Source: Calothrix sp. PCC 7716
GTDB lineage: Bacteria; Cyanobacteriota; Cyanobacteriia; Cyanobacteriales; Nostocaceae
Direction of reading: 5' to 3'
Length of the DNA: 64,000 nt
Assembly: GCF_019977735.1 (NCBI RefSeq)
Contig: NZ_AP025018.1
Coordinates: 9,304,580 to 9,368,579 of the forward strand
Below, in pieces: positions 5,619 through 59,439 of the stretch. Under the pieces are notes generated by a model. That model was given only the letters and a program-made list of their open reading frames with translations. It had not been told where the DNA came from and did no database searches. The first letter of the stretch is position 1; each line of letters opens with the position of its first letter. The position numbers and the translations under genes are program-made.

Positions 5619-5635
5619 TTTCATCCTGATTTCAT
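5619..5635 (+). promoter_or_regulatory. CopR/RppA-type direct repeat box 1
   Basis: TTTCAT, five bases, TTTCAT. A TATAAATA-like -10 lies about 18 bases downstream. No intact gene starts close by; the next feature is a second box 101 bases on. Confidence 0.75.
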
Positions 5636-5735
5636 CTTGATATGAAAAACTTATAAATAAGGTATATAAGATACTGACTTAGTGCTGTTCGCTCAAGGAG
5701 GAAGCTAAAAGAATAAAAACCTTCTCATGCCAGGA

Positions 5736-5752
5736 TTTCATCTTGATTTCAT
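5736..5752 (+). promoter_or_regulatory. CopR/RppA-type direct repeat box 2
   Basis: TTTCAT, CTTGA, TTTCAT. It stands in front of gene remnants (5822-6108) and, beyond them, the SanA-like gene. It may be left from a lost gene or may read through to 6126. Confidence 0.75.
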
Positions 5753-5821
5753 TTTGGTGTGAGACATTATGTACAGTGCCCACGGAACAAATATTGCTAT
5801 ATCCCAAGCTACTATCCATCT

Positions 5822-5926
5822 AGAGTAGCTACAAAGTACGGCTTTGACCGTTACTGGCGTGATCTACGTACTTTTACTCTACATGATCCAGTAGACTACA
5901 AAATACGAGATGTGGGCGATTCGTAA
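5822..5926 (+). pseudogene. Remnant of acyl-CoA dehydrogenase-type flavoenzyme (C-terminal segment)
   Basis: One frame encodes GFDRYWRDLRTFTLHDPVDY and continues to a stop at 5924. This matches the C-terminal signature of acyl-CoA dehydrogenase-like monooxygenases (SfnB/DszC group: F/L-D-R-x-W-R-N-x-R-T-x-x-x-H-x-P-V). There is no start and no upstream part of the enzyme. It is flanked by box 2 and by the EgtD remnant, so this is decayed DNA. Confidence 0.6.
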
Positions 5927-5934
5927 AATTAAGT

Positions 5935-6108
5935 GCCCTCACTTTGAGTGTTAATTTTGCTAGAGACGAAACTATTATGACCGAGATTTCACGTAAGTTT
6001 GATCTTGCAACAATCAAACAGCAATTAAGCGCGCGTGGTTTAGTAACACAGAAAGTTTGGACTGATGAAAACAACTGGGTTAGTTTGCTGCTTTGTCAAT
6101 TCGATTAA
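5935..6108 (+). pseudogene. Remnant of EgtD-type histidine methyltransferase (C terminus)
   Basis: The frame reads LTLSVNFARDETIMTEISRK, then FDLATIKQQLSARGL and VWTDENNWVSLLLCQFD before a stop at 6106. It resembles the last 55 or so residues of SAM-dependent L-histidine N-alpha-methyltransferases (E-x-S-x-K-F ... V-W-T-D ... W-F-x-L-L-L). The methyltransferase core is absent. It abuts the acyl-CoA dehydrogenase remnant directly, so two unrelated gene ends are joined here. A 44-codon ORF from ATG 5977 exists but is unlikely to be functional. Confidence 0.55.
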
Positions 6109-6125
6109 CTTAGCCAATATCTACA

Positions 6126-6809
6126 ATGATATTCTTTAAACAAAAAATTGAGAGAAAGTATTTCAGGTTGTTCCGTTGGTTGCGTTTGGTATTGCTAGGT
6201 TTACTAATTAGTTTATTGGTGATACCATTGACGGCAACCGCCTATATTAGTTTGATGACTAATGGCGCCCGCTATATCAAACCAGAAGAAGTTCCACAAG
6301 AACGGTTAGCAATGGTATTCGGTGCAGGAATTTTGGCTAATGGTGAACCGACACGGATGCTTGCAGAGCGTGTAGAAGCTGGAGTTAAACTTTACCAGTT
6401 TGGACGAGTTAAAAAGTTACTGATGACAGGAGATAACAGTAGAGTTTCCTATAATGAGGTTAAGTCGATGCAGCAGTACGCTCATAATTTGGGTGTACCA
6501 ATAACAGATATTGTTTTAGATTACGCTGGTTTTAGCACCTATGAGAGCTGTTATCGCGCTCATCAGATTTTTGGGCTACATAAAGCTGTTGTTGTCACCC
6601 AAAATTATCATTTACCTCGTGCAATCTACACCTGTCGCCAATTTGGTTTAGATACCGTAGGTTTAGGAACTCCAGATATCGAAATTTATGGACTATGGGG
6701 AATGATTCCTTATTTAAGGCGGGAAATTTTAGCAAACGTTAAAGCATTATGGGAGGTTCATATTACCCGTCCTCGACCTACTTTTTTGGGACGTATCGAA
6801 AAAATATAG
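6126..6809 (+). CDS. SanA/YdcF-like DUF218 membrane-anchored protein
   Basis: 227 residues. An N-terminal membrane segment (about 18-42) is followed by a DUF218 domain: MVFGAGILANGEPTRMLAER near 58, then LLMTGDN, Y-N-E, and VVVTQNYHLPRAIYTCRQFG near 160. The order and the C-terminal R-E-I-L-A-N-V-K-A match the SanA (vancomycin high-temperature exclusion) group. Family members act at the cell envelope, and their biochemical role is not settled. The gene may be reached by transcription from the boxes at 5619 or 5736. Confidence 0.85.
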   Translation: MIFFKQKIERKYFRLFRWLRLVLLGLLISLLVIPLTATAYISLMTNGARYIKPEEVPQERLAMVFGAGILANGEPTRMLAERVEAGVKLYQFGRVKKLLMTGDNSRVSYNEVKSMQQYAHNLGVPITDIVLDYAGFSTYESCYRAHQIFGLHKAVVVTQNYHLPRAIYTCRQFGLDTVGLGTPDIEIYGLWGMIPYLRREILANVKALWEVHITRPRPTFLGRIEKI

Positions 6810-6950
6810 CAAACAGTAGTAACTTACCGCAACCTGAATTAATCATTATTGAAAATTGTGCCTTGTAAATAGTACAGGCTTTACACCAAAACATTACACG
6901 TATAGGAATGCGAGTAGTACATATAAAAATAATTCTGTTCTCAATCAAAA

Positions 6951-6967
6951 TTTCATCTTGATTTCAT
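6951..6967 (+). promoter_or_regulatory. CopR/RppA-type direct repeat box 3 (tolC promoter)
   Basis: TTTCAT, CTTGA, TTTCAT, followed by TGTCAAACTAAT. The likely start point is near 6996, giving a leader of about 235 bases before tolC. A 9-bp hairpin at 7107-7134 followed by a T-rich stretch may attenuate this leader. Confidence 0.75.
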
Positions 6968-7231: not shown

Positions 7232-8701
7232 ATGTTCAATTACCGTAACTTATTTGTAGTAACTATTATCTCTGTATTTACCTTTGGGCATATTTCTGCT
7301 AGTTTCGCCCAAACAGTATTTTCTTTAACTCAGTCTCAAAAAAATCAAGCACAAAAATCTCCCACTCCTACTTCACTTGACAACCTCAATCCTAACCCAA
7401 ATCTTCTACAGTTTCCTACCAAATCAGAGGAAGTTAAAATTCTCGTAACTCAGCCTATTACCTTAGAACAGGCTTTAGAACTAGCACGCTGTAATAATCG
7501 AGACTTGCAAGTAGGAATATTAACTTTGGAACGTAGTCGCGCGGCATTACGCGAAGCACAAGCAGCTTTATACCCGAACTTTGGTTTAAGCACAGATGTA
7601 TCCCGTGGACAATCTGCAAGCGATCAACTTTCTGCTGAATTACGCTCTCGAGGTGGAATACCGACAAGTCAAGAAGCGGCAAGTACAACTTTTTCTGGTG
7701 CCGCGCAGTTAAGTTACAACATTTATACTTCTGGTTCAAGGTCAGCCCGCATTCGAGCAGCAGAGGAACAATTACGTTTTGATGAATTAGATGTGCAACG
7801 TCTGTCAGCAGAAATTGGCTTACAAGTTGCCACTCAATACTACGATTTACAACAAGCCGATGAACAAGTTAGAATTAACCGTGCTGCCGTTGAAAACGCG
7901 CAACGTAGTTTAAAAGATGCTCAAGCATTAGAAAGTGCGGGAGTTGGTACTAGATTTGATGTTCTGCGTTTTCAGGTAAATTTAGCAAATGCTCAACAAG
8001 ACTTGACTAATAGTGTTAGTCAGCAGCTAGTAGCCGCAAGACTGCTGGCAGTCACGTTGAGTTTACCACAATCTACAAATATCAGTGCCGCAGATTCAGT
8101 GAAAATAGCTGGTTTATGGAATCAGACACTTGAAGATAGTATTGTGCTGGCGTTTCAAAATCGTCCTGAACTACAACAGCAATTGGTACAACGTAACATC
8201 AACGAGCAGCAACGACGCTTGGCACTCGCTGAGGTTCGACCACAAGTTAGTTTGGTTGCTAGTTACAATTTGTTGGACGTATTTAATGATCGCGTAGGCA
8301 TTACCGATGGTTACTCGCTTGGAGTTAGAGCAAACTGGAATTTATTTGATGGAGGCGCCGCTAGAGCAAGATCTGCTCAATCGAAAGCTAATATTAATAT
8401 TGCCGAAACTCGTTTTACTAGCCAACGTAACCAGATTCGTTATCAAGTTGAACAATCTTACAGTAATTTGCAATCGAATTTAAGTAATGTTCAGACCGCT
8501 ACTGTTGCTTTAAATCAAGCTCAAGAAGCTTTAACTTTAGCAAGGTTAAGATTTCAAGCAGGTGTAGGTACTCAGACTGATGTTATCGCTTCTGAAACTG
8601 AGCTTACTCGGGCTGAGGGAAATCGGGTTAGGGCTATATTGGATTACAATCGTGCTTTGGCTGGTTTGCAAAGGGCTGTTAGTAATCTGGGAAATCCTTA
8701 A
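7232..8701 (+). CDS. TolC-family outer-membrane efflux protein
   Basis: 489 residues with a signal peptide (SVFTFGHISASFAQ) and two outer-membrane efflux repeats: LEQALELARCNNRDLQVGIL near 75 and the second half from about 300, including LGVRANWNLFDGGAARARS. Long heptad-rich helices around residues 180-260 and 390-470 fit the TolC tunnel. It ends 14 bases before a merR gene and probably forms an operon with it under box 3. It is the only TolC in the window, so it may serve both RND pumps (0-3 kb and 45.5-50 kb); this is inference. Confidence 0.93.
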   Translation: MFNYRNLFVVTIISVFTFGHISASFAQTVFSLTQSQKNQAQKSPTPTSLDNLNPNPNLLQFPTKSEEVKILVTQPITLEQALELARCNNRDLQVGILTLERSRAALREAQAALYPNFGLSTDVSRGQSASDQLSAELRSRGGIPTSQEAASTTFSGAAQLSYNIYTSGSRSARIRAAEEQLRFDELDVQRLSAEIGLQVATQYYDLQQADEQVRINRAAVENAQRSLKDAQALESAGVGTRFDVLRFQVNLANAQQDLTNSVSQQLVAARLLAVTLSLPQSTNISAADSVKIAGLWNQTLEDSIVLAFQNRPELQQQLVQRNINEQQRRLALAEVRPQVSLVASYNLLDVFNDRVGITDGYSLGVRANWNLFDGGAARARSAQSKANINIAETRFTSQRNQIRYQVEQSYSNLQSNLSNVQTATVALNQAQEALTLARLRFQAGVGTQTDVIASETELTRAEGNRVRAILDYNRALAGLQRAVSNLGNP

Positions 8702-8715
8702 ATGTAGGTGTGTAA

Positions 8716-9132
8716 ATGTTGAATCACGAGAAAAAACATCTGTTAATTGGTCAAGTAACAGCTTTAAGTGGAGTCCCTATCGCGACTATTCGCTATTATG
8801 AGAGTTTAGGTCTCCTCAAATCTTACGGACGCACAGAGGGAGGATATCGACAGTTTTCAGAAGATGTGCTGACCCGTTTAGCTTTTATTAAACGGGCACA
8901 AAATCTAGGTTTGAGTCTGGAAGAAATTGGAGATATTCTTAATGTTTATGACAATGGAAAGCCTCCATGTAGCCAGATTAAAGAGAAACTAGACAATAAG
9001 CTATTAGAAATTGACAATAAAATTGACGAACTGTTAATTTTACGTAATGAGTTGGGAGAATTGCTTTCTGGTTGGAAAAATTTACAAGATAAACCAAAAG
9101 ATAAAATTTGTCCGATTATTCAGAAATATTAA
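8716..9132 (+). CDS. MerR-family metal-responsive regulator (copy 1)
   Basis: 138 residues. The N-terminal winged helix reads LIGQVTALSGVPIATIRYYE, then GLLKSYGRTEGGYRQF; a long dimerisation helix runs over about 85-120. Metal-loop cysteines: one in K-P-P-C-S near residue 83 and one in K-I-C-P-I-I at the C terminus. The middle Cys found in CueR and MerR is replaced by Trp (LLSGWKNL). The gene is nearly identical to the copy at 36460-36852. It follows tolC closely, has no MerR operator of its own, and probably acts on the palindromes listed below. Confidence 0.92.
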   Translation: MLNHEKKHLLIGQVTALSGVPIATIRYYESLGLLKSYGRTEGGYRQFSEDVLTRLAFIKRAQNLGLSLEEIGDILNVYDNGKPPCSQIKEKLDNKLLEIDNKIDELLILRNELGELLSGWKNLQDKPKDKICPIIQKY

Positions 9133-9365: not shown

Positions 9366-9382
9366 TTTCATCTGCTTTTCAT
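9366..9382 (+). promoter_or_regulatory. CopR/RppA-type direct repeat box 4
   Basis: TTTCAT, CTGCT, TTTCAT, with TATAAATATAGAG about 20 bases on. It gives a short leader to the DUF2808 gene at 9446. Confidence 0.75.
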
Positions 9383-9445
9383 AATTAACATTCATACTTA
9401 TAAATATAGAGACAATTAATCCACTAAATGAAAGAGGACATGACC

Positions 9446-9925
9446 ATGAAAAAGTTGATTTATGCAGTTGCATTTACCTTAGTTATTGCATCTTCAGTTC
9501 CTACAGCTTTGGCAAAAAACCCTAATGATGCTAAGGTCACTCATCTTGGTAATAGTGCTGCATTTCCTAACGATTCTGCTGTTTCAGATGCTACTCATAA
9601 ATTTGAAGTACACGTTCAAGGAAAAGCTGTATCTGAGTTAGCTATTAATTTGCCAGAAGGAGTCAAAGTTAAGAGAGGAATTGAGGTTAAAAACAAATCA
9701 GGTCAAAAAATTCCTGCGACAGTTTCAATTGATGGAAAAATAGCTACAGTAACTTTTTCTGAACCTGTAGCTCCTGGTAACTCGCTATCGGTTTCTATGA
9801 AAGGAGTTAACGCTGCGAGTTACGATTCTAATCAATTTTTGCATTATCAAGTATCTGCTAAAAATGAAGGAATGAAAGAAGCGATTTCACTCGGTTTGGT
9901 TCAGATAACAACTTACCTAAGTTAA
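9446..9925 (+). CDS. DUF2808-family secreted protein (copy 1)
   Basis: 159 residues from the ATG at 9446; ATGs at 9428 and 9440 are in frame upstream and also possible. The signal peptide ends near VPTALA. The mature part holds ATHKFEVHVQGKAVSELAIN, a VTFSEPVAPGNSL strand pair and the final SLGLVQITTY, matching the DUF2808 pattern (F-x-x-x-L-P ... V-x-F-x-x-P-V-x-P-G ... L-G-x-x-R/Q-x-x-x-Y). Pfam describes DUF2808 as cyanobacterial and of unknown function. There is no cysteine and few Met, so it is not an evident copper binder. It is one of five paralogues in the window, each with its own direct-repeat box. Confidence 0.78.
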   Translation: MKKLIYAVAFTLVIASSVPTALAKNPNDAKVTHLGNSAAFPNDSAVSDATHKFEVHVQGKAVSELAINLPEGVKVKRGIEVKNKSGQKIPATVSIDGKIATVTFSEPVAPGNSLSVSMKGVNAASYDSNQFLHYQVSAKNEGMKEAISLGLVQITTYLS

Positions 9926-10388: not shown

Positions 10389-10405
10389 TTTCATCTTGAT
10401 TTCAT
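10389..10405 (+). promoter_or_regulatory. CopR/RppA-type direct repeat box 5
   Basis: TTTCAT, CTTGA, TTTCAT. It lies 150 bases before the anti-sigma-like gene, with a MerR-type palindrome (10490-10511) between them. Confidence 0.75.
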
Positions 10406-10852: not shown

Positions 10853-11554
10853 ATGAAAAGTAATACTTTGATTTACAGTTTAGTCGGTTTATTAACTAGC
10901 AGTGCTATTGCAGGATTATTAATTACTAGTAGCACTAAAGCTCAGTCTCCAAATACACAACCAAATACACAACATAATAGACATCATCCATCCAACCAAA
11001 CAACGACTCCTCAACAACGAGGAATGATGACCCAAGTTGACCAGCATTTTATCGAAATGATGGTTCCACATCATGAACAAGCAGTGCAGATGGCGGATTT
11101 GGCTTTAGCTCGCTCTAAACGTCCTGAAATTAAAAAATTAGCGGAAACGATTAAAAGAGATCAAAACCGCGAAATTCAACAAATGCGAACTTGGTACAAA
11201 GCATGGTACGGTAAAAATGTGCCTGTTGTTGCGATGAATCAGGGAACAATGATGCAAATGCATCAAGGCATGAAACCAGAAATGATGGATGCATCTATGC
11301 ACCAGAACATGATGAATATGAAGGTGGATTTAGAAGCTTTGAAGAATGCCTCTGATTTTGATAAAGAATTCATTCGTCAAATGATTCCCCATCATCGAAT
11401 GGCTTTGATGATGTCGCAGATGGTAACAAATAAAGGTCAAAAACCCGAACTTCGCAAGTTAGCTCAGTCGATTATTAAAACGCAAACGGATGAAATTAAC
11501 CAGATGCAGCAATTGTATCAAGTTTGGTATAAGTCAACCCCCGAACAAAGTTAA
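10853..11554 (+). CDS. copM: DUF305 (CopM-like) secreted copper-binding protein
   Basis: 233 residues. A signal peptide (to about 30) is followed by two DUF305 repeats. The first is FIEMMVPHHEQAVQMADLAL, the second FIRQMIPHHRMALMMSQMV; each has the H-H-x-x-A/M-x-x-M pattern. The linker is very Met-rich (MNQGTMMQMHQGMKPEMMDA). Synechocystis CopM is a DUF305 protein that binds copper in the periplasm and is needed for resistance, which fits this regulon. A ribosome site GGAGAGG lies 8 bases upstream. It ends 5 bases before lysR. The symbol is by family resemblance. Confidence 0.85.
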   Translation: MKSNTLIYSLVGLLTSSAIAGLLITSSTKAQSPNTQPNTQHNRHHPSNQTTTPQQRGMMTQVDQHFIEMMVPHHEQAVQMADLALARSKRPEIKKLAETIKRDQNREIQQMRTWYKAWYGKNVPVVAMNQGTMMQMHQGMKPEMMDASMHQNMMNMKVDLEALKNASDFDKEFIRQMIPHHRMALMMSQMVTNKGQKPELRKLAQSIIKTQTDEINQMQQLYQVWYKSTPEQS

Positions 11555-11559: not shown

Positions 11560-12522
11560 ATGAACATTGAGCTTCGGCACTTGCACTACTTTATAGTTGT
11601 GGCGGAAGAGCTAAACTTTAGACGAGCAGCAGCACGACTCAATATTGCTCAACCGCCATTAACTCGGCAAATTCAGCAGTTGGAAGAAGAGTTGGGTGTA
11701 GAACTCTTTCATAGAACTACGCGCCGAATGAACTTAACACAAGCAGGTCAAGTCTATCTGCTAGAAGCTCGTCGAGTATTAGCTCTTGTTAAAGAAGGTG
11801 TTGCTATGGCTAGGCTTGCTAGTCGAGGTGAAGTCGGTCGCTTGGTTGTGGGATTTGAGGGATCATCAGCTTATGATATTGTGCCTTTGTCTGTAAAAGC
11901 TTTTCGATATAGGTATCCCAAAGTGAATATTACCATACATGAGATGACTACAGGCGAGCAAGTTCAGGCTCTACATCATGCTCACATTGAAATTGGTTTT
12001 GTAGTGCCGCCGCTTTCAAATTCTCGCGGTTTGACGGTTGAAACTATATTGCGCGAGCCATTAATCGTGGCTTTACCCCAGAATCATTGCCTATCTAACC
12101 AGCTTGAGATTGATTTGGCTGACCTCAAAGATGAAACCTTCATTATTTGTCCGAGACATTATAAGTGCGGACTATATGACCGTGTAATTTCGGTTTGTCA
12201 TCAAGCGGGTTTTACTCCAAAGCTGACTCAAGAAACTTCGGAAGTACAAAACATACTAGGTTTTGTTACTGCTGGGCTTGGCATTGCTCTGTTACCTGCT
12301 TCCGTAAGGCACTTGCAGAAGTTGGGATTAGTTTATCGGCGCCTGCGTTCTCCTAGTGCTTCTTTGGAGTTAGCTGTTGCATGGCAACAAAATAACCCAT
12401 CTCCTATGCTCCCAGCCTTTATTCAGATTATTAAGGAATTAGCGAATCATATTTCTAATGCAATACCTTCGCCAGATTTAAGAACTGCTAGAGCTAGCAC
12501 TAGCTGGGTGGATACGCCCTAA
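11560..12522 (+). CDS. LysR-family regulator with C terminus rewritten by an IS insertion
   Basis: 320 residues. The winged helix-turn-helix reads LRHLHYFIVVAEELNFRRAA and continues QPPLTRQIQQLEEELGVELF. A periplasmic-binding-type effector domain covers about 90-295 (BenM/CatM-like group). At codon 300 the frame enters the IS: the last 20 or so residues (from AIPSPDLRTAR) are IS sequence. Removing the IS and one TAATG restores an end N-E-N-N-I-stop at 13938-13940. Only the extreme C terminus is affected, so the regulator may still work. Its effector and targets are not apparent. Confidence 0.9.
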   Translation: MNIELRHLHYFIVVAEELNFRRAAARLNIAQPPLTRQIQQLEEELGVELFHRTTRRMNLTQAGQVYLLEARRVLALVKEGVAMARLASRGEVGRLVVGFEGSSAYDIVPLSVKAFRYRYPKVNITIHEMTTGEQVQALHHAHIEIGFVVPPLSNSRGLTVETILREPLIVALPQNHCLSNQLEIDLADLKDETFIICPRHYKCGLYDRVISVCHQAGFTPKLTQETSEVQNILGFVTAGLGIALLPASVRHLQKLGLVYRRLRSPSASLELAVAWQQNNPSPMLPAFIQIIKELANHISNAIPSPDLRTARASTSWVDTP

Positions 12523-13921
12523 ATTGGTAACTCTGTGGAAAATATTTGCCATTAAAACTGGGTCTGGTTTTTCGGGAAGGAGTTTTATAGTTTCCTCAAC
12601 ATATTTGTAACCTCGGAACAGTGCCTTCAGGTCTGTAACACTAAATTCAGGGTTAAATTTACGAAAATGAACAAGCAAAACCTGTGAAATATTAACCATA
12701 AAAAACGCAAGATTAGCAGCGTTTGTAACTGCTGTTTTCCCAACATTCATAAAATCTTCTAGCCCCCAAAATTGTTTAGCGTCTCGGTAATTGAACTCAA
12801 TTTGAAATCTGAGACTATAATAATCAATTAGCTTTTCATGACTTAATTCTAAGTCCGTTGAAAATAACACTGCATGAGTTCGTGTTAAGGTTTTAATATT
12901 TGTTCGTACTATGATAACGACATTTAATGCCTGACAATACTCCTTGTGTAGAAGTTTTGCTTGGTAAATATCTGTACGAATGTCATCTTCAATGTTAGTT
13001 TCTTTGAGAAAACGCTCTGGTATAAAAGAGTAGTTAATTTTTTCACCATACTTACGACGAGACTTGCGTGTCGGGTCTGGATTTTCATAAGGTATGTATA
13101 AAGCTGAGTCATGACGCATTTTACAAATTAGGTGTAAACCTACCTGCCGAGCCATTACTACAGCTTTATTATTTCCAAAATAACCATCTAGTACTAAGTA
13201 TGTCAATGGTAAAAAGTTACTGATTTTTTTCAGTAAATCCTGAACCATATGACGAATACGTAGAAAGTCTGGTGTTAAATTTACTTCTTTTTTATCCTTT
13301 GTTTTACTACCTTTTGGGCGCCCGCCTTTCTTTTTTACAGTTTCTTTACTTAACTCATTTTTAGATGCTTTAGGCTTTTCTATTATTTTTTTAACTTTAT
13401 CTTCTTTTGGTTTTATGATTTGCTCTACGCTGATAGGAAATGCTTTTCTCTGTTCAATACTTACAAGCGATAATGTAAAAAAAGATAATCCAAGTATGGG
13501 TTTTTCATATAAGGATGAGAAAAATCTATCAATCCCATAGCTTTTTTCCCCAGCTTTGCTAACTACTACTTCATCCCCTGCTAATATATATGTTTCTTTG
13601 CTACGAAATATATGTTCTTTAAAAAATACCCAAAATAGTACTGCCCAAGGTAGTGATGAAGCAAAAAAACGTTGTATTGTTCGATAACTTCCCCCTTTTC
13701 CACACCATCGTGATATCCCCAGCATGGTTATTCTTCCACTCATCGCTAGTATTGCTGGTATAATTCGGCTCCACCGTCTTAAAGTTGTTCTTGTTGTGTG
13801 TCGCTGTAAGGATTCCAATAGTGCTAATATATTTGGCATGGGCTTTCTGGCGTGTTTGAGTTGTAGTCTAGTCAACATAACTCTACTACAGAAGGCCCTC
13901 TTTATTTTGGCGAAGGTATTG
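12461..13921. mobile_element. Complete insertion sequence, IS4-superfamily DDE type, 1,461 bp
   Basis: The ends are a 14-bp perfect inverted repeat, CAATACCTTCGCCA at 12461-12474 and its complement at 13908-13921, extending imperfectly to about 22 bp. The element is flanked by a 5-bp direct duplication TAATG (12456-12460 and 13922-13926). It holds one transposase gene on the minus strand. The intact duplication and ends suggest a recent insertion into the end of lysR. Confidence 0.9.
12478..13878 (-). CDS. DDE transposase (IS4 superfamily, Y-REK motif)
   Basis: 466 residues filling the IS. The N-terminal part has SYRTIQRFFASSLPWAVLF. Acidic candidates are AGDEVVVSKAG and LVLDGYFGNNKAVV, and the C-terminal YSLRFQIEFNYRDAKQFWGL gives the Y-x2-R-x3-E-x6-K signature typical of IS4-like enzymes. 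A Lys-rich insertion (about 165-195) separates the first acidic region from the second. The last residues ASASSSSS run into the terminal repeat region. Subfamily is uncertain; the 5-bp target duplication should help to assign it. Confidence 0.9.
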   Translation of the reverse strand: MLTRLQLKHARKPMPNILALLESLQRHTTRTTLRRWSRIIPAILAMSGRITMLGISRWCGKGGSYRTIQRFFASSLPWAVLFWVFFKEHIFRSKETYILAGDEVVVSKAGEKSYGIDRFFSSLYEKPILGLSFFTLSLVSIEQRKAFPISVEQIIKPKEDKVKKIIEKPKASKNELSKETVKKKGGRPKGSKTKDKKEVNLTPDFLRIRHMVQDLLKKISNFLPLTYLVLDGYFGNNKAVVMARQVGLHLICKMRHDSALYIPYENPDPTRKSRRKYGEKINYSFIPERFLKETNIEDDIRTDIYQAKLLHKEYCQALNVVIIVRTNIKTLTRTHAVLFSTDLELSHEKLIDYYSLRFQIEFNYRDAKQFWGLEDFMNVGKTAVTNAANLAFFMVNISQVLLVHFRKFNPEFSVTDLKALFRGYKYVEETIKLLPEKPDPVLMANIFHRVTNLGRIHPASASSSSS

Positions 13922-33234: not shown

Positions 33235-33251
33235 TTTCATCTTGATTTCAT
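33235..33251 (+). promoter_or_regulatory. CopR/RppA-type direct repeat box 6 (porin promoter)
   Basis: TTTCAT, CTTGA, TTTCAT, followed by TTATTTATAGGGG as -10 region. The leader to the porin gene is short (about 45 bases). Confidence 0.8.
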
Positions 33252-35293: not shown

Positions 35294-35310
35294 TTTCATA
35301 TTGATTTCAT
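35294..35310 (+). promoter_or_regulatory. CopR/RppA-type direct repeat box 7 (no gene follows)
   Basis: TTTCAT, ATTGA, TTTCAT, then 16 bases to TAAAAT at 35327-35332. No coding region follows on this strand for 600 bases; a folded RNA starts at the predicted start point. Confidence 0.75.
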
Positions 35311-35893: not shown

Positions 35894-35931
35894 TAAAAAT
35901 AAATGAGTAAGAAAAATTTTAGGTGGACATT

Positions 35932-43076: not shown

Positions 43077-43141
43077 ATTTTCCTCCACTCAAAATATTGT
43101 GGGGTGGGCTTTAGATCGCCCGCCCTCATATAGCACAGCTA

Positions 43142-43518: not shown

Positions 43519-43535
43519 TTTCATCCTGATTTCAT
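43519..43535 (+). promoter_or_regulatory. CopR/RppA-type direct repeat box 8
   Basis: TTTCAT, CCTGA, TTTCAT, then GAGTATAGCC as -10 region. Drives the lipoprotein at 43745 with a leader of about 180 bases. Confidence 0.8.
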
Positions 43536-43744
43536 TTTTGCCTGAGAAACTGAGTATAGCCTTCCCTGTTTAAAGCCCAAAGTTCAACTTATTTTTGCCA
43601 TCATGACTTACCAGTACATAACCACTAATATAATTATTTGCTGCTTGCGTGCTATTTGGTTGTCATGGAGGGCACCTTTCTAACTTTTGGAATATGCTTG
43701 TTGTGGTTTGTTTTTGAGAATCTAATTTGCTAACTGGAGAAAAA

Positions 43745-44676: not shown

Positions 44677-44693
44677 TTTCATCTTAATTTCAT
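44677..44693 (+). promoter_or_regulatory. CopR/RppA-type direct repeat box 9 (no gene follows)
   Basis: TTTCAT, CTTAA, TTTCAT, 11 bases after the lipoprotein stop. A folded RNA with a terminator-like end follows at 44748-44806. Confidence 0.7.
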
Positions 44694-44830: not shown

Positions 44831-44847
44831 TTTCATCATGATTTCAT
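44831..44847 (+). promoter_or_regulatory. CopR/RppA-type direct repeat box 10
   Basis: TTTCAT, CATGA, TTTCAT. It lies 330 bases before the flavodoxin remnant, but a 15-bp hairpin with a T-rich tail (44908-44955) stands in between. Confidence 0.7.
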
Positions 44848-50285: not shown

Positions 50286-50302
50286 TTTCATCTTGATTTC
50301 AT
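50286..50302 (+). promoter_or_regulatory. CopR/RppA-type direct repeat box 11
   Basis: TTTCAT, CTTGA, TTTCAT, about 90 bases before the DUF2808 gene at 50392. Confidence 0.8.
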
Positions 50303-50391
50303 CGTGAGATGCCAAGCTAGTTAGAGGAAGCTTCATTCATCGTTGATGAATTGCTGATCTAATAAGAGTTCTTTTGATTATAGCAGTCAAG

Positions 50392-50871
50392 ATGATGCGA
50401 AAGTTAATTAATGTTAGTGTATTGGCTATAAGTACTATAACCATTATCTATACTGGTTATGCCAGCGCTAAAGTAAATGATACTAAACCCACTAATACTG
50501 AGAATGACACGCAGTTATTCCCAGCTCAATGGCAGCTTGTCAAACAAACTTTTCAAATACGTGTTCCTAAACGTGGTAAACCTCTGAAGCAGCTAATAAT
50601 TGAAACTCCCCCTACTGTAGCTGTAAGTAATGATATTAATGTTTTTGATGATAAAGGTCAAAAAGTTAACATCGATATTTCTGTTGATAATAGAAAAATC
50701 ATTATAACTTTTCCAGAGACTGTTACTTCTAGCACTAGTAAGCTTTTAGTCTCACTTAACAGAGTGCAACAGCAAATTAATGAATCAGGCACTGTCTACA
50801 GTTTATCAGCAAAAGTTATTGGAAGCGATGTAGAGGTTCCTATAGGTCAAGCTCAGTTTCGTAATTTCTAG
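50392..50871 (+). CDS. DUF2808-family secreted protein (copy 2)
   Basis: 159 residues from ATG 50392. The signal peptide ends near TGYASA. The mature part has QWQLVKQTFQIRVPKRGKPL, an ITFPETVTSSTSKLLVSLNR segment and the final VPIGQAQFRNF, which fit the DUF2808 outline but differ from copies 1, 4 and 5. No cysteine. It has its own box upstream. Confidence 0.7.
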   Translation: MMRKLINVSVLAISTITIIYTGYASAKVNDTKPTNTENDTQLFPAQWQLVKQTFQIRVPKRGKPLKQLIIETPPTVAVSNDINVFDDKGQKVNIDISVDNRKIIITFPETVTSSTSKLLVSLNRVQQQINESGTVYSLSAKVIGSDVEVPIGQAQFRNF

Positions 50872-50885: not shown

Positions 50886-50902
50886 TTTCACCTTGATTTC
50901 AT
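50886..50902 (+). promoter_or_regulatory. CopR/RppA-type direct repeat box 12
   Basis: TTTCAC, CTTGA, TTTCAT (one mismatch), then TGTCAAACTAATAAATAGAG. It starts a leader of about 200 bases before the gene at 51138; a TAGAGG/CCTCTA helix is at its 5' end. Confidence 0.7.
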
Positions 50903-51137: not shown

Positions 51138-51623
51138 ATGAAAAAAGCATTAATTTATACTGCTGTCGGCGCCATTGCTGCTACGCTTTTTATTCCTGTA
51201 AGTTACGCAAGTGCGAAAGATAACAATGGAACACTTCCTCATATTGATGGTAATTCACAGTTCCCTCAAACTCGCTGGTCAAATGTTAGACATACTTTTC
51301 GCATACATATTCCTAAAAATAGTCCAAGTGTTTCTCAATTAAATATTGAAGTTCCAAATACTTTAACCTGGAGTAATAATACTAATGACGTTATTGTAGC
51401 GAATGAAAATGGCAAAAAAATTAACGCCAATATTACTACTAATGGAAAGAGTATACTAATTGCATTTGCCAAACCAGTAGCTTCTAACACTAAGCTAGAA
51501 ATTGATATTAAGAATGTAAAGCAACTATTTCGTGGTAACGGACCTGTTTACAATATTAAAGCAACAATTGCTGGAAGTACAACAGATATACCTATAGGAA
51601 CAGCAAGATTTCGTGTAAATTAA
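51138..51623 (+). CDS. DUF2808-family secreted protein (copy 3)
   Basis: 161 residues. The signal peptide ends SYASA; the mature part has RWSNVRHTFRIHIPKNSPSV, an IAFAKPVASNTKLEIDIKNV segment and IPIGTARFRVN at the end. It is closest to copy 2 and shares its N-terminal Q-F-P-x-x-x-W pattern. No cysteine. AAGGAG lies 7 bases upstream. Confidence 0.72.
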   Translation: MKKALIYTAVGAIAATLFIPVSYASAKDNNGTLPHIDGNSQFPQTRWSNVRHTFRIHIPKNSPSVSQLNIEVPNTLTWSNNTNDVIVANENGKKINANITTNGKSILIAFAKPVASNTKLEIDIKNVKQLFRGNGPVYNIKATIAGSTTDIPIGTARFRVN

Positions 51624-51772: not shown

Positions 51773-51789
51773 TTTCATTTTCATTTCAT
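51773..51789 (+). promoter_or_regulatory. CopR/RppA-type direct repeat box 13
   Basis: TTTCAT, TTTCA, TTTCAT, then AATAAATATAGAGG as -10 region and a leader of about 40 bases to the gene at 51855. Confidence 0.8.
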
Positions 51790-51854: not shown

Positions 51855-52325
51855 ATGAAGAAATTGATTTATGCCACAGCTTTTACCTTAGTTCTTGCAT
51901 CTACAGTTCCTTCAGCTTGGGCAAGCAATCCAAATGATGCGAACATCACCCATCTAGGAAAAAGTGCTGCTATTCCTATAGATTCCTTAGTGCCAGATGC
52001 TACTCATAAGTTTGATGTTCATGTTCAAGGCAAAGCTGTTTCAGAATTGGCAATTGATATACCCGAAGAAGTAAGTGTTAAAGGAATTGTAGTCAAAAAT
52101 AAATCAGGGCAAAAAATTCCTGCGACAGTTTCAATAAATGGTCGAAAAGCAACAGTAGCATTTTCAGAACCTGTAGCTTCTGGAAACTCACTGACAGTCT
52201 TTATGAATGGAGTTGACGGTCCTGATTATGGACAAACTTTGCATTATCGAGTATCTGCAAAGTTTGTCGGAATGAATGGAGATATTTCTCTAGGTTTAGC
52301 TAGAGTTCAAACTTCCCGTGACTAG
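51855..52325 (+). CDS. DUF2808-family secreted protein (copy 4)
   Basis: 156 residues, very close to copies 1 and 5 (KKLIYATAFTLVLASTVPSA, NPNDANITHLGKSAA, VAFSEPVASGNSLTVFMNGV, SLGLARVQTS). The signal peptide ends SAWA. No cysteine. AAGGAG lies 9 bases upstream. Short leader from its own box. Confidence 0.78.
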   Translation: MKKLIYATAFTLVLASTVPSAWASNPNDANITHLGKSAAIPIDSLVPDATHKFDVHVQGKAVSELAIDIPEEVSVKGIVVKNKSGQKIPATVSINGRKATVAFSEPVASGNSLTVFMNGVDGPDYGQTLHYRVSAKFVGMNGDISLGLARVQTSRD

Positions 52326-52972: not shown

Positions 52973-52989
52973 TTTCATCTTGATTTCAT
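52973..52989 (+). promoter_or_regulatory. CopR/RppA-type direct repeat box 14
   Basis: TTTCAT, CTTGA, TTTCAT, 150 bases before the DUF2808 gene at 53139. A folded RNA with a seven-T end (53019-53117) stands between them. Confidence 0.75.
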
Positions 52990-53138: not shown

Positions 53139-53609
53139 ATGAAGACATTAATTTATGCTACTGCTGTTACCCTATTTGTTGCATTTACAGTTCCTGCTTT
53201 TGCAAAAAGCCCAAATGATGCAAAAGTTACGCATTTAGGGAACAGTGCAGCTATTCCTAACTATGCTCAGTTTCCTGGTGCTACTCATAAATTTAATGTT
53301 TATGTCCAGGGTGAGGCTATTTCAGAATTAAGAATTGATTTGCCAGAGGATATAAAAATTAAACAAGGAATTGAAGTTCAAAATCAATCAGGTAAACGAA
53401 TTCCAGCAATGGTTGACATTAATACGAGAGAAGCAACGCTTACTTTTTCAGAACCAATAGCTGCTGGTAATTCTATTTTAGTCATGATGAACGGAATTAA
53501 AACTCCAGGTTATCAAAGAACTTGGCATTATCCGGTATATATCAAAAAAGTAGGAATGACGGAAGAAATTCCACTTGGTTTAGCGCGAATTCAAACTTAT
53601 GGTAGCTAA
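53139..53609 (+). CDS. DUF2808-family secreted protein (copy 5)
   Basis: 156 residues, close to copies 1 and 4: signal peptide to VPAFA, then KSPNDAKVTHLGNSAAIPN, ATHKFNVYVQGEAISELRID and LTFSEPIAAGNSILVMMNGI; it ends PLGLARIQTYGS. No cysteine. Its box is 150 bases upstream, behind the terminator-like fold at 53019-53117. Confidence 0.78.
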   Translation: MKTLIYATAVTLFVAFTVPAFAKSPNDAKVTHLGNSAAIPNYAQFPGATHKFNVYVQGEAISELRIDLPEDIKIKQGIEVQNQSGKRIPAMVDINTREATLTFSEPIAAGNSILVMMNGIKTPGYQRTWHYPVYIKKVGMTEEIPLGLARIQTYGS

Positions 53610-53840: not shown

Positions 53841-53857
53841 TTTCATCCTAATTTCAT
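53841..53857 (+). promoter_or_regulatory. CopR/RppA-type direct repeat box 15 (sbnA-like promoter)
   Basis: TTTCAT, CCTAA, TTTCAT. The leader to the gene at 53993 is about 107 bases and holds a 9-bp helix ATTTGGTTA/TAACCAAAT. Confidence 0.75.
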
Positions 53858-53992: not shown

Positions 53993-54982
53993 ATGATTCA
54001 TGATTCGATAGTAAGTTGTGTTGGAACAACACCGCTAGTTCGTTTGCGTCGGCTATTTCCTCAAGATGGTGTTGATGTAATTGCTAAATTAGAGTTTTTG
54101 AATCCTGGTGGTAGTGTAAAAGACCGTCCCGCTAAATTTATTGTGGAAAAGGGATTGCAAGACGGTACAATTACCAGCGAAACTCATTTGATTGAAAGCA
54201 CATCTGGTAATTTGGGTATCGCATTAGCTATGATGGCACGAATTTATAAGCTTTCCTTCACCTGCGTAGTAGACCCAAAAATATCACCCACCAATTTACA
54301 AATACTGAGACAATTAGGCGCCAATATTGATATGGTGCAAGAACCAGATGACCAAGGAGGATATCTGAAAACGCGGATACAGAGAGTGCATCAATTACGT
54401 AAAGTGATTCCTCACTGTTTATGGATTAATCAGTATGCGAACCAACTGAATTGGCAAGCACATTACAATGGGATTGGCGGTGAAATAATTGAGAACTTGG
54501 ATGGTAATATTGATTGTCTTGTAATTGCTGTTAGTACTACAGGAACAATTTTAGGAGTAGCTCGTCGTTTACGTGAGAAGTTTCCCAAATTACGAGTTAT
54601 TGCTGTTGATGCTGCCGGTTCAGTAATTTTTGGTGCTAATCCTGGAGTTCGTGATTTACCTGGTATTGGTTCGAGTCGCGTTCCGGAACTATTGAGCAGG
54701 GCTGAAATTGATGAAGTTGTTTATGTCAATGATTTAGAATCGATGCAAGGGTGCCGTGAATTAGTCGCAAAAGAAGGTATTTTTGCTGGTGGTTCATCTG
54801 GTTCTGTAGTTGCCGCTATCCAAAAGCTTCTTCCTACTTTCCCACAATCCTACCGCGTCTTGACACTGTTCCCAGACCGAGGAGAACGCTATCTTGATTT
54901 AGTTTATGATGACGCTTGGGTTGCAAAAATTCAACGTCGTACAATGGAAGCCCAAATTCAAATACCACCAGTGCTTGCTTAA
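53993..54982 (+). CDS. SbnA-like PLP enzyme (O-phosphoserine/glutamate aminocarboxyethyl transferase family)
   Basis: 329 residues of the cysteine-synthase fold. It starts SIVSCVGTTPLVRLRRL; the PLP lysine is in NPGGSVKDRPAKFI (near 44), the substrate loop is ESTSGNLGIALAM, the phosphate loop STTGTILGVARR, and GIFAGGSSGSVVAAI lies at the cofactor Ser. It matches SbnA (which makes N-(1-amino-1-carboxy-2-ethyl)-glutamate, a diaminopropionate precursor) better than plain CysK, in my judgement. No sbnB partner is seen. The metal-response box and the following exporter suggest a secreted metal ligand. Confidence 0.8.
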   Translation: MIHDSIVSCVGTTPLVRLRRLFPQDGVDVIAKLEFLNPGGSVKDRPAKFIVEKGLQDGTITSETHLIESTSGNLGIALAMMARIYKLSFTCVVDPKISPTNLQILRQLGANIDMVQEPDDQGGYLKTRIQRVHQLRKVIPHCLWINQYANQLNWQAHYNGIGGEIIENLDGNIDCLVIAVSTTGTILGVARRLREKFPKLRVIAVDAAGSVIFGANPGVRDLPGIGSSRVPELLSRAEIDEVVYVNDLESMQGCRELVAKEGIFAGGSSGSVVAAIQKLLPTFPQSYRVLTLFPDRGERYLDLVYDDAWVAKIQRRTMEAQIQIPPVLA

Positions 54983-55105: not shown

Positions 55106-56014
55106 ATGGTTTTTTTAGCAAATTTTCAAGGAGAATTAGCAGCGTTAGGAGTAGCATTTTTATGGGCGCTGACTTCAATAGTTTACAGTAAACTGGGTAA
55201 GAAAATTCCTCCACTATTGATGAATTTAAGTAAAGGAGGAATTGCTATTGCTTTAATTATCTTCACAATTCTACTAAGTGGTCAGCAACTACTACCAAGC
55301 ATAAACCTAATTCCTTTTATGCTCTTAGTTCTGAGCGGTGCAGTGGGAATTGGTATTGGTGATACTGCTTATTTCTCAGCCTTAAATCGTTTAGGGGCAC
55401 GTCGAACGCTGCTGCTGAAAACATTAGGACCACCTTTGGCTGCTATTACGTCTACTATATTTTTAAAAGAACAGTTGTCCTATACAGCCTGGGTAGGTAT
55501 ATTGTTAACTGTCTTAGGTGTGGCTTGGGTAATTAGTGAACGAGCTACAAATGTGACGGGTACAAATAAGCAACTCATTCCAGGTGTCGGTTTTGCCCTT
55601 CTTTCCGCCTTCACGGATGCACTAGGCGCCGTTTTTTCTCGTGCTGCGCTCACAGATACAAGTGTTACTCCCTTATGGAGCGCGATGGTGCGACTTATAG
55701 GAGGAGCGTTAATACTCTTACTTTGGCTGGTGCTGGAACGAAAACCAGTTGGTGTACCAGTAAAAGAACTACGTTCTGGTAAATTATTGGGCATAATTAC
55801 TTTGTGTGCATTTCTCAGCACTTATCTAGGCTTTTGGCTGCAACAGATTTCTCTCAAATTTACTACTGCTGGTGTTGCTAAATCTTTAGGCGCCACAAGT
55901 CCAATATTTGTGATACCAATCACTTTCTTTTTAGGTGATGTTGTTACGATACGGGCAATACTTGGCGTATTTGTTGCTGTTGCAGGGGTTGGGTTACTAT
56001 TTATCTACCGTTAG
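55106..56014 (+). CDS. EamA/DMT-family exporter
   Basis: 302 residues, ten membrane helices and two EamA repeats (about 10-145 and 160-300). The first repeat ends in the typical KEQLSYTAWVGILLTVLGVA; the second has AKSLGATSPIFVIPITFFLG. AAGGA lies 9 bases upstream. DMT proteins export small metabolites; in Pseudomonas a DMT protein (CntI) exports the metallophore pseudopaline. The partner role with the SbnA-like enzyme is inferred from adjacency. Confidence 0.9.
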   Translation: MVFLANFQGELAALGVAFLWALTSIVYSKLGKKIPPLLMNLSKGGIAIALIIFTILLSGQQLLPSINLIPFMLLVLSGAVGIGIGDTAYFSALNRLGARRTLLLKTLGPPLAAITSTIFLKEQLSYTAWVGILLTVLGVAWVISERATNVTGTNKQLIPGVGFALLSAFTDALGAVFSRAALTDTSVTPLWSAMVRLIGGALILLLWLVLERKPVGVPVKELRSGKLLGIITLCAFLSTYLGFWLQQISLKFTTAGVAKSLGATSPIFVIPITFFLGDVVTIRAILGVFVAVAGVGLLFIYR

Positions 56015-56208: not shown

Positions 56209-56225
56209 TTTCATCCTGATTTCAT
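56209..56225 (+). promoter_or_regulatory. CopR/RppA-type direct repeat box 16 (P2 ATPase promoter)
   Basis: TTTCAT, CCTGA, TTTCAT, then CTGTCAATCTGAGTATAG; leader about 30 bases. Confidence 0.8.
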
Positions 56226-56281
56226 CAAACTCTGTCAATCTGAGTATAGAAGTAAATCTTTATGATAGTTAGCCACCCATT

Positions 56282-59209
56282 ATGAAATCTAAATTATCTG
56301 ACTCTGTATCGAATACAGTTATTCCTTGGCACACCCTAGAAATCGAAGAAGCTTTGAAAATGCAGGAAAGCAACTTTGATACTGGGTTGACTTTTGAGCA
56401 AGCGTCGGAACGATTACAGCAATATGGAACTAACGAACTACAAGAGTTTGGCAGTCGTAAACCTTTATCTATCTTAATAGAACAGTTTACGAACATCATG
56501 CTAGTGATGCTCATAGCAGTAGCAGTAGTTTCAGCAGTTTTAGATTTACGCTCTGGCGATTTTCCTAAAGATGCAATCGCGATATCCTTTATTGTAATTC
56601 TCAATGGTTTACTTGGCTTTTTACAAGAAAGCCGCGCGGAAAAAGCCCTTGCAGCTCTTAAACGTCTTAGTTCTCCTAAAGTTCGAGTTGTGCGCGACAA
56701 TAGAATATTTGAGGTGCCAGCAAAGGAACTGGCGCCTGGTGATATTATCTTTCTGGAAGCTGGAATGCAAGTAGCCGCAGATGGTCGTTTGCTGTCAGCC
56801 CAAAATTTGCAACTGATGGAGTCTGCTTTAACAGGGGAAGCACAGGCAGTTCATAAAGACTCTACTCTTCATTTACCTGAGAATGCTTCCTTGGGAGACC
56901 GTATAAATATGGTGTATCAAGGCACTGAAGTTGTCCAAGGTCGAGCAAAAGTGCTTGTTACAGCTACGGGAATGCAAACTGAACTGGGTAAAATTGCTAC
57001 TTTACTCCAGTCTGTTGAAGCGGAACCAACCCCTTTACAACAACGAATGGCACAGCTAGCAAATGTTTTGGTTGCAGGTTCGCTTGGGTTGGTGGCTGTT
57101 GTAATTATCGCTGGTATTTTACAGACAGGTAGCTTTAAATACTTTGAACAATTGTTAGAAGTTTCTTTGAGTATGGCTGTAGCGGTTGTACCGGAAGGTT
57201 TACCTGCTGTAATCACGGTGACTTTAGCAATTGGTACTCAACGAATGGTACGTCACCAAGCATTAATTCGCAAACTACCAGCAGTTGAGACATTAGGCTC
57301 AGTTACTACCATTTGCTCAGATAAAACAGGCACGCTTACTCAAAACAAGATGGTTGTACAGTGGATTAACGTACCTGGTTATATTGTTAGGGTAACTGGA
57401 GAAGGTTATTCTCCTACTGGAACATTTGAATTACATACTAGTTATGCTGTAGAACACAATCCAGAATCCAATATTAACCAAACCGTTACACCGATAAAAC
57501 CACAAAATTATCCAGAACTTGAACTACTGTTACTTGCCTGTGTACTTTGCAATGATGCTGTATTACAGAAAAAGCATTCAGAATGGGAAATTTTGGGAGA
57601 CCCAACTGAGGGAGCATTATTATCTGTTGCTGGTAAAGCTGGTATACAACAAACAAATTTACTTTTGCAGTTTAACCGTATAGCCGAGTTTCCTTTTTCT
57701 TCTGAGCGCAAACGGATGAGTGTTATTTGCCAGAGGCGCCTGAAAGAGGAGTTAACACAAATATTCTCGCTTGATTCTTCACACCTGGCGCCTGACTCTC
57801 AAATACTGATGTTTACAAAAGGTTCGCCAGAGTTAGTTTTAGAACTTTGCACTTATTATATTGATGCTTCTGATACTTTTACATCTCAAATACTAGATGA
57901 CGGGACAAGTGATAACTTCCCAACCGCACCCCACACAAAACGCTCTTTTGCTCTGAATCCAGAAAAACACGCTTATATTCTTGAACAAAATAACCAAATG
58001 GCACGTCAAGGACTGCGAGTGCTAGGATTTGCCTATAAACTTTTAGATGTTGTACCGAAAGACGACGGAACAACAACCGAACGAGAATTAGTCTGGTTAG
58101 GATTAGTTGGAATGCTGGACGCACCACGACCAGAAGCAAAAGAAGCTGTTGCTCAGTGTCAACAAGCAGGCATTCGCCCAATTATGATTACTGGAGACCA
58201 CCAATTAACAGCACAAGCTGTTGCTTACGATTTAGGTATTGCAAAAGCAGGTGACTTAGTTCTTAGCGGTCAGGACTTGGAAACACTTTCTACAGATGAA
58301 CTAGAGCAACAAGTTAACCAAGTTAGTGTTTACGCGCGCGTCTCTCCCGAACACAAACTACGAATTGTCCAAGCATTAAAAAATCAAGGCAAATTGGTAG
58401 CGATGACTGGAGATGGTGTAAATGATGCCCCTGCTTTACGCTGTGCAAATATTGGCATTGCAATGGGTGTTACTGGTACTGATGTCAGCAAGGAAGCTAG
58501 TGATATGATACTGCTGGATGACAATTTTGCTACGATTGTTCGCGCAGTTAAAGAAGGACGGGTTGTTTACGATAATATCCGCCGCTTTATTAAATATATT
58601 TTAGGTAGCAACATCGGTGAAGTTTTGACAGTAGCAGCAGCTCCCCTCATTGGTTTAGGTGGTGTTCCCCTCTCACCGCTGCAAATACTTTGGATGAATC
58701 TTGTTACCGATGGGCTACCAGCTTTAGCTTTGGCAATGGAACCTCCTGAACCTAATGTGATGCGTCGTCCTCCCTACAACTCCCATGAAAGTATATTCGC
58801 ACGTGGGCTAGGGTTTTATATTATCCGCATTGGTATTATTTTTGCAATTATCACTATTGCTCTGATGGTGTGGGCTTATAACTATACTCAACAGTCAGGC
58901 GACCCCGAAAGATGGAAAACAATGGTGTTTACAACTTTGTGCCTAGCACAGATGGGTCATGCGCTGGCAATTCGTTCTAACACGCAATTAACTTTACAGT
59001 TGAATCCGTTCTCAAATCCTTACATACTTGCCGCAGTTTCATTGACAACTATTTTACAACTAATGTTAATCTACGTTGCCCCCTTACGTAGCTTCTTTAA
59101 CACTCACTTGTTAAGTATGCCAGAACTAGCCATATCTGTAGGATTTAGCGCTTTGGTATTTGTCTGGATTGAACTAGAAAAGTTATTTATCAAGTATTTT
59201 CTACGTTAG
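56282..59209 (+). CDS. P2-type cation ATPase (Ca2+-transporting, PacL-like)
   Basis: 975 residues. N-terminal cation ATPase domain ([20 protein letters not shown]), helix-4 motif [20 protein letters not shown] (PEGLP as in SERCA/PacL), phosphorylation site [13 protein letters not shown], hinge [12 protein letters not shown]. Helix 6 reads [12 protein letters not shown], consistent with P2A ion ligands N and D. About ten membrane helices. A calcium pump under a copper-type box is unexpected; substrate could differ. Confidence 0.92.
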
Positions 59210-59228
59210 CAAAAATAATCAACAACAT

Positions 59229-59245
59229 TTCATCCTGATTTCATA
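59229..59245 (+). promoter_or_regulatory. CopR/RppA-type direct repeat box 17
   Basis: TTTCAT, CCTGA, TTTCAT, then TAATTAATAG about 16 bases on. It lies 257 bases before rppA, behind a terminator-like hairpin (59345-59385), so it probably drives the short RNA at 59273. Confidence 0.75.
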
Positions 59246-59272
59246 TCTACCTGCCATGATAATTAATAGCTC

Positions 59273-59385
59273 TGTAGACTCTTTGTTAAAAAATTGGCTT
59301 TGATAACTCCTCTAGCACCAATGGGGCAAAAGAGTCTAATGAGTTTTCCTTAAACATTATTTTTTAAGGAAAATTTAACTTTTTC
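59273..59385 (+). ncRNA. Candidate metal-responsive small RNA D
   Basis: Predicted +1 near 59274. TAGACTCTTTG (59276-59286) pairs with 59328-59339 (one bulge). Then an 11-bp perfect hairpin (TTTTCCTTAAA 59345-59355 with 59364-59374) and a T-rich tail form a terminator. No gene is encoded. It stops before the second box at 59423. Confidence 0.5.
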
Positions 59386-59422
59386 GTAGTTCATTATACA
59401 ATTTTTCTTTAAAACCTGAAAA

Positions 59423-59439
59423 TTTCATCCTGATTTCAT
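59423..59439 (+). promoter_or_regulatory. CopR/RppA-type direct repeat box 18 (rppA promoter)
   Basis: TTTCAT, CCTGA, TTTCAT, then CTGTCAAGCTAATCTTTAGG. It is 46 bases before the rppA start, so the regulator very likely controls itself. Confidence 0.85.

Follow-up and report, generated by a model that had tools for sequence, protein, structure and literature searches.

The window analysed here is a 64-kb stretch of the Calothrix sp. PCC 7716 genome (positions 9,304,580-9,368,579 of C1, the 11.4-Mb contig of a 12.4-Mb genome). It carries an array of short direct repeats, TTTCAT-N5-TTTCAT (hereafter boxes), which precede many genes including the two-component pair rppA-rppB. Seventeen exact copies are found between positions 5619 and 59439, all on the + strand, while 0.02 were expected from 100 dinucleotide shuffles; the eighteenth copy has TTTCAC as its first hexamer. 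The spacing of the hexamers is strict: 17 pairs are separated by N5, none by N4 or N6, and any other spacer from 0 to 24 occurs at most once. None of the 18 boxes overlaps an open reading frame (ORF) of at least 80 amino acids (aa). The first-pass annotation of this DNA was therefore right in describing 17 exact boxes and a single imperfect one, all outside ORFs. The sole other one-mismatch match of the window (42706-42722, - strand) lies inside the ATPase ORF 40815-43088 and was taken as a chance occurrence. A TTTCAT direct repeat with an 11-bp period is the form of the CopR/RppA-type operator (cyanobacterial cop box).

Profile searches in the window agree with the downstream genes initially listed: TolC, OprB porin, histidine-rich lipoprotein, SbnA, P-type IIA ATPase and RppA-RppB. 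Among the five DUF2808 genes of that list, four are recognized by Pfam; the fifth (50374-50871) has no Pfam match and is a relative sharing 36% identity with one of them. The DUF305 protein encoded by 10853-11554 is 45.5% identical to CopM from Synechocystis. The features are given in Table 1.

Table 1. Boxes of the window, with the genes that follow them and their state in aligned relatives
Feature	Position	Strand	Remarks
Box 1, exact	5619..5635	+	Upstream of DUF218 gene 6126-6809
Box 2, exact	5736..5752	+	Upstream of DUF218 gene 6126-6809; recovered in 0/4 aligned orthologues
Box 3, exact	6951..6967	+	Upstream of tolC; hexamers kept at tolC orthologue in 2/3 relatives
TolC-type outer membrane efflux protein	7232..8701	+	Followed by MerR-family gene 8716-9132
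Box 4, exact	9366..9382	+	62 bp upstream of DUF2808 gene 9428-9925; kept in 3/3 relatives
Box 5, exact	10389..10405	+	Upstream of a small ORF and DUF305 (CopM-like) gene 10853-11554
Box 6, exact	33235..33251	+	Upstream of OprB/SLH porin 33324-35036; kept in 3/3 relatives
Box 7, exact	35294..35310	+	Next Pfam-matched gene is thioredoxin-like 35923-36180, 629 bp downstream
Box 8, exact	43519..43535	+	Upstream of His-rich YtkA-like lipoprotein 43727-44665 (YtkA-like score under Pfam cut-off); kept in 4/4 relatives
Box 9, exact	44677..44693	+	Upstream of split flavodoxin-like gene and AcrA/AcrB pair
Box 10, exact	44831..44847	+	Target as for box 9
Box 11, exact	50286..50302	+	Upstream of diverged DUF2808 relative 50374-50871; kept in 3/3 relatives
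Box 12, TTTCAC mismatch	50886..50902	+	252 bp upstream of DUF2808 gene 51138-51623
Box 13, exact	51773..51789	+	Upstream of DUF2808 gene 51855-52325; kept in 3/4 relatives
Box 14, exact	52973..52989	+	Upstream of DUF2808 gene 53139-53609; recovered in 0/4 aligned orthologues
Box 15, exact	53841..53857	+	Upstream of sbnA-like 53993-54982 and EamA transporter 55106-56014; kept in 3/3 relatives
Box 16, exact	56209..56225	+	Upstream of P-type IIA ATPase 56282-59209; kept in 3/4 relatives
Box 17, exact	59228..59244	+	Distal rppA box; kept in 4/4 relatives
Box 18, exact	59423..59439	+	Proximal rppA box; kept in 4/4 relatives
CopR/RppA-family response regulator	59486..60238	+	NF041734, 400 bits (cut-off 250)
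CopS/RppB-family sensor kinase	60165..61637	+	NF041735, 715 bits (cut-off 400)

Some parts of the array deserve separate mention. Positions 12478-33127 form a box-free gap of 20 kb, which starts with a DDE transposase gene (12478-13878, - strand) and carries a copper-type P1B ATPase, a phosphoketolase and a Mg-type P-type ATPase; this stretch may have been inserted separately. Downstream of the double box 44677/44831, two short ORFs (45160-45520) share 75% and 73% identity with a longer island gene, c1_25, considered flavodoxin-like from reading its sequence rather than from a family search. These ORFs look like a single broken gene. Three relatives retain box 7 together with its distance of 629-642 bp to the thioredoxin-like gene, and a small RNA or a short peptide could be encoded in this gap.

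Distribution and conservation of the boxes

The whole genome contains 79 exact sites versus six for a reversed-pattern control. Sixty-five of them are grouped in two clusters, 33 within 91 kb of C1 (the chromosome island, partly covered by the window) and 32 on a second contig, C2 (384,612 bases), where, assuming a circular C2, they span about 57 kb. Of the 14 remaining sites, three have DUF305, CusB or RppA-RppB genes beside them; the other 11 lack such neighbours. The genome-wide scan that had been proposed thus finds the repeat concentrated in two metal clusters and not spread evenly over the genome. The idea of one regulon holds as far as the shared CopR-type operator is concerned, its sites extending well outside the window. 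In the same way, the boxes, said to be always on the + strand, are so in the window only; elsewhere their orientation follows that of the genes, the C2 sites being mostly on the - strand and one one-mismatch - site being present in the chromosome island.

The 34 +-strand sites of the chromosome island serve 26 ORFs of at least 100 aa within 450 bp, which implies that some genes have two boxes and that some sites have no close gene. When A was required at -1 and TTTCAC allowed in the first hexamer, 35 sites were counted in a 125-kb chromosome stretch around the island; although 80% of this stretch is coding, none of them overlaps an ORF of at least 100 aa. On C2, 2 of the 32 sites do. Many paralogues are common to both clusters, with roughly 40-97% identity. 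Beside the island, eight genes (c1_1 to c1_10, less two; C1:9263294-9272675 and L038) show 82-99% identity between their chromosomal and C2 copies (95-99% for seven of the eight), pointing to a probable recent exchange between these replicons.

Across both clusters, the boxed genes of metal type encode RppA/RppB, CusB- and CzcA-type efflux components, CopM-like DUF305 proteins and a multicopper oxidase-like protein. Others encode TolC, OprB porin, His-rich lipoproteins, glutathione reductase and a group 2 sigma factor, and further ones P-type IIA ATPase, SbnA, SulP, CemA and DUF2808 proteins. An assignment of c1_23 as MerA-like was rejected, its score being over the NCBIfam cut-off for one glutathione reductase model and below for others. 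The group 2 sigma factor gene (L032:18628-19602), SigB-like according to the names of its plasmid homologues, recurs on C2; this second copy is boxed too, as are the homologues in four relatives.

For the DUF2808 proteins (51138-51623 and its paralogues), a beta sandwich is predicted. The top match of a second look at this fold is the copper protein YcnI, which we take to be a DUF1775 copper-binding protein and to which the predicted fold is near. Since Foldseek alone ranks pilin domains first, this match is a lead only; a PDB sequence search with DUF2808 gave nothing meaningful. Both clusters also carry a DUF326 protein, presumably of the copper-storage Csp type (L032:1061-1417 and L037:6753-7109), on the strand opposite to most boxed genes; no box was found upstream of these two genes.

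The alignment of 65 sites leads to the extended motif aaA-TTTCAT-CYTRA-TTTCAT-n7-TG-n2-A-n3-T. After the second hexamer, the bases conserved in position are T24 (60/65), G25 (51/65), A28 (60/65) and T32 (60/65), and strong conservation spans from about 3 bases 5' of the box to about 40 bases past its start. A TGTCAA-like element begins 13 bp past the start of the second hexamer (mean of 4.2/6 matches at offset 24 over 60 sites); it is possibly a third contact or a part of the promoter. A third TTTCAT unit one 11-bp step further was looked for in 60 sites and not seen.

The boxes are conserved in relatives. Upstream regions of orthologues were aligned for 26 chromosome-island genes having a box within 450 bp of an ORF of at least 100 aa, no box being required in the relatives: both hexamers are fully kept in 62 of the 87 comparisons, and identity reaches 91% in hexamers versus 73% in flanks. 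Even the TTTCAC variant of box 12 is kept at the orthologue in three relatives (G003, G004 and G006), and a separate site scan does place a box 280 bp upstream of the G006 orthologue of the box 14 gene. Stretches of four relatives, chosen for their boxes, contain 130 sites (exact, or with one mismatch and at least 5/6 of the extra bases), 114 of which are within 700 bp of a same-strand homologue of an island protein.

Using a tight pattern, 31 matches are found in this genome and 1-4 in each of 50 out of 290 genomes of the class, while the reversed control gives 0 everywhere. A slightly looser pattern gives 29-33 matches in five large related genomes and again 0 for the control. Loci with the tight pattern were taken from 29 of these 50 genomes: 22/29 encode DUF305, CusB/CzcB or RppA within a 3-kb locus, compared with 3/14 loose-pattern sites of the Calothrix genome outside the clusters. 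One of the 29 has no island homologue at all. Weak labels (RppA 30% at L009, HlyD 24% at L002, RppB 42% at L120, SbnA 32% at L132) are not counted in these figures.

Plasmids tell a similar story. Matching records by accession, with E-value limits that differ between searches, RppA is also carried by 29 of 31 PLSDB plasmids with DUF305 and by 24 of 25 with DUF2808. A tight box lies within about 300 bp upstream of the DUF305 gene in seven of the eight box-bearing plasmids with a DUF305 hit (exception AP018182; gene start estimated for NC_019699), and 217-253 bp upstream of the best DUF2808 gene in six of seven box-bearing plasmids (exception NC_019699). Seventeen of the 38 regulator-carrying plasmids are typed as conjugative, which suggests that such regulons may be transferable.

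Regulators, kinases and the link with CopR

The response regulator of the window is 62.7% identical to CopR from Synechocystis. Their recognition helices, whose position is presumed by analogy with PhoB, read SNVVAAQIRLLRRKL and SNVVAAQVRLLRRKL respectively and share 14 of 15 residues. The kinase is 51% identical to CopS and keeps its periplasmic Cys pair and Arg-His. Among 11 aligned kinases, Cys82 and Cys88 are found in 10 and Arg95-His96 in all; in RppB/CopS-type kinases, these residues would bind copper.

Two further regulators of the island score 390 and 310 bits against NF041734, and nine loci of the genome exceed its cut-off of 250 bits. A ranking that covered the best 12 loci falls into two halves: an exact box precedes each of the top six RppA-type regulators (291-400 bits), whereas ranks 7 to 12 (228-258 bits) are all without one. 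Of the four boxed RppAB-type loci, three pairs belong to the two clusters and one pair is located at C1:4.80 Mb; the two RppB kinases of the chromosome island are only 51% identical to each other. Two boxed orphan regulators without adjacent kinase (c1_16, L031:15751-16503; c2_61, L037:8065-8823) have homologues in relatives. In both, the helix has the sequence SCVVATQVR(A/T)LRQKL and serine takes the place of the proline that follows the conserved lysine; in c2_61, located on C2, Gly replaces one acidic residue of the phosphorylation pocket. These orphans may compete with or tune the main regulators. The product of the rppA gene of the window, which the first-pass annotation had designated as regulator, is a likely activator of the regulon and one candidate among four RppAB-type loci and two orphans.

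The link between box and regulator was also examined starting from proteins. Among the best 60 rows of a protein comparison (two overlapping ORFs of L041 being counted once), 14 of 25 RppA-type loci have an exact box within 450 bp: 6/6 in this genome and 8/19 elsewhere, i.e., 2/9 on genome contigs and 6/10 on plasmids. None of the 24 less similar regulators among the matches listed has one. Ten RppA-type genes from the relatives' stretches chosen for boxes are left out of this count (9/10 with an exact box). The association is therefore strong in this clade and in Nostocales plasmids, and weaker elsewhere.

The box is also present at the promoters of the Synechocystis cop operons, as had been suggested for CopR in the first-pass annotation. 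On pSYSX of Synechocystis PCC 6803, TTTCATCCTGATTTCAT is located 67 bp upstream of the first gene of a DUF305-rppA-rppB operon, and a close copy of this 17-mer, TTTCATCTTGGTTTCAT, upstream of a CusB-CusA pair. Further downstream, both sites match the extended motif in its TG, A and T as well. From their position and content, these operons are taken as copMRS and copBAC. Both of these operons are reported to require CopR (PMC4182526), which binds their promoters (PMC4284471). The CopR consensus printed in PMC4182526, TTCATN4-5TTCAT, has no match as written in the pSYSX stretch, where the cop promoters (L149:6337 and 9044) read TTCAT-N6-TTCAT, i.e., TTTCAT-N5-TTTCAT. Furthermore, RefSeq names the CopR of pSYSX 'rppA'; the NCBI RppA model thus covers CopR, and this label is no argument for nickel. 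In Anabaena PCC 7120, three DUF305 genes are copper-induced (PMC4335983).

Interpretation of the boxes

Taken together, these similarities make it quite probable that the boxes are operators of CopR/RppA-family response regulators controlling a copper-type regulon that is expanded in this genome. The regulator family and the operator are well supported. The two TTTCAT half-sites, 11 bp apart, would be occupied by an OmpR/PhoB-type dimer in head-to-tail arrangement, adjacent to the core promoter on its upstream side. The RppB/CopS-type kinase would sense excess periplasmic metal, most likely copper, and lead to phosphorylation of the regulator, and the bound dimer would recruit RNA polymerase and activate transcription, including that of its own operon; as rppA operons are boxed too, the response would be self-amplifying. 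By comparison with known systems, copper appears to be the best-supported signal; nickel and silver are less well supported. From the two kinds of cop operons of Synechocystis, the regulon would have spread to some 65 sites, divided between a chromosomal island and a second-contig cluster. Since the operator is also found at three further RppAB-type loci, two orphans and a group 2 sigma factor gene, several inputs probably converge on it.

Various observations weigh against this reading. A role in metal handling is not evident for some of the boxed genes (SbnA, DUF218, CemA, SulP). The -10 element initially placed 16-18 bases after the second hexamer finds no confirmation, despite the strong conservation of T24, G25, A28 and T32: a TAnnnT hexamer occurs in the expected zone at 27/60 cluster sites versus 30.8 from shuffles, and the best match has that spacer at 7/60 sites only. 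Twenty-five of the 87 comparisons did not keep every hexamer base, partly because of alignment or start errors, and 14 of the 38 RppA plasmids have no DUF2808 hit (24/38 have one). The three weakest regulators over the NCBIfam cut-off (253-258 bits) lack a box, and 11 of the 25 RppA-type loci found by protein have no exact box within 450 bp upstream, including the CopR of pSYSX because it is the second gene of its operon. In Synechocystis, the sites located before mntC and nrsRS/nrsBACD showed no response to CopR (PMC4182526) although these loci carry the pattern, so that a box alone need not mean control. Finally, a different RppA motif, AAMAWCTCYYWCCCC, has been reported (cited in PMC13421787). 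Searched in the window, it gives no exact match, one with one mismatch inside tolC and eight with up to two mismatches (2.5 expected), none overlapping a box, and it was rejected as an account of the boxed promoters.

The operator could instead be read mainly by a NrsR-like system (sll0797, the true RppA of Synechocystis) for nickel, light or redox, copper being secondary. NCBI names these regulators RppA/RppB, a CopR-type pattern is reported between nrsRS and nrsBACD (PMC4182526), and the sensors differ between loci, as illustrated by the two diverged RppB kinases of the island. However, the regulator and the kinase are close to CopR and CopS (63% and 51%, a one-sided comparison from which sll0797 was left out), CopM-like DUF305, CusB, CusA/CzcA-type efflux and multicopper oxidase-like genes are boxed, and none of the boxes of the window contains the published RppA motif. 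This makes a NrsR-like reader rather improbable. It is far less probable still that the boxes are a promoter element recognized by the group 2 sigma factor of the island, TTTCAT standing for the -35. In favour of it, a box precedes both copies of the sigma gene as well as its homologues in the four relatives, and bases downstream of the box are conserved. Against it, a pair of equal hexamers at a strict 11-bp spacing is what a response regulator site typically looks like, the box occurs in Synechocystis at copM and copB, which depend on CopR (PMC4182526), and no tight box directly precedes the homologous sigma genes of the three plasmids NC_020157, NZ_CP063786 and NC_019699. The view that the boxes belong to a mobile promoter cassette or small repeat, marking insertions and not regulation, can hardly be retained: many copies lie close together, paralogous promoters are common to both clusters and the window contains a transposase gene, whereas strong conservation stops on both sides of the box within the limits given above, relatives retain the sites at the same genes although the flanking sequence has drifted, and none of the chromosome-island sites overlaps an ORF of at least 100 aa.

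The reading of the boxes as CopR/RppA-type operators can be compared with known systems. CopRS of Synechocystis sp. PCC 6803 shares the box, the regulator and kinase families and a core of DUF305/CopM, CusB and CusA. There, only copMRS and copBAC were reported to respond (PMC4182526), whereas the present genome has some 65 sites spread over two contigs, RppAB in several copies, two orphans, a sigma factor and many DUF2808 genes. The nickel system NrsRS (RppAB) resembles the present one by the NCBI family name, a model label, and by its promoter region, and differs in its literature motif. In Cupriavidus metallidurans, acquired metal determinants are mostly under two-component systems, with interplay between them (PMC10127602); in the present genome, a single operator sequence is common to all boxed RppA-type loci.

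A more detailed scenario can be proposed tentatively, and seems rather doubtful as a whole. The copper switch of the Synechocystis cop operons would have become, in cyanobacteria of Calothrix/Dulcicalothrix type, a super-regulon over two contigs. It would combine about 65 operators of identical type, all recognized by each of four RppAB-type systems with different sensors, two tuning orphans with altered helices (and, in one of them, a modified acidic pocket), a sigma relay and DUF2808 as a new secreted copper-handling family with a YcnI-like fold.

Significance of the proposed expanded regulon

While this type of operator is already known, what is new here is how large the regulon is, how its sites group on two contigs, how many paralogous systems share the operator and which genes are targeted. 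The expanded regulon is not described in the best-matching titles and abstract starts of the open-access literature, subscription papers not being covered by this search. A published and little-used operator is tied to a defined regulator family across cyanobacteria, and a simple pattern, without any reversed-control match in 290 genomes of the class, predicts metal-response genes in cyanobacterial genomes and plasmids. It also names candidates of no known function, such as DUF2808, small Cys-rich proteins and the boxed sigma factor. Several paralogous two-component systems with one operator constitute a natural case in which insulation versus cross-talk is directly testable.

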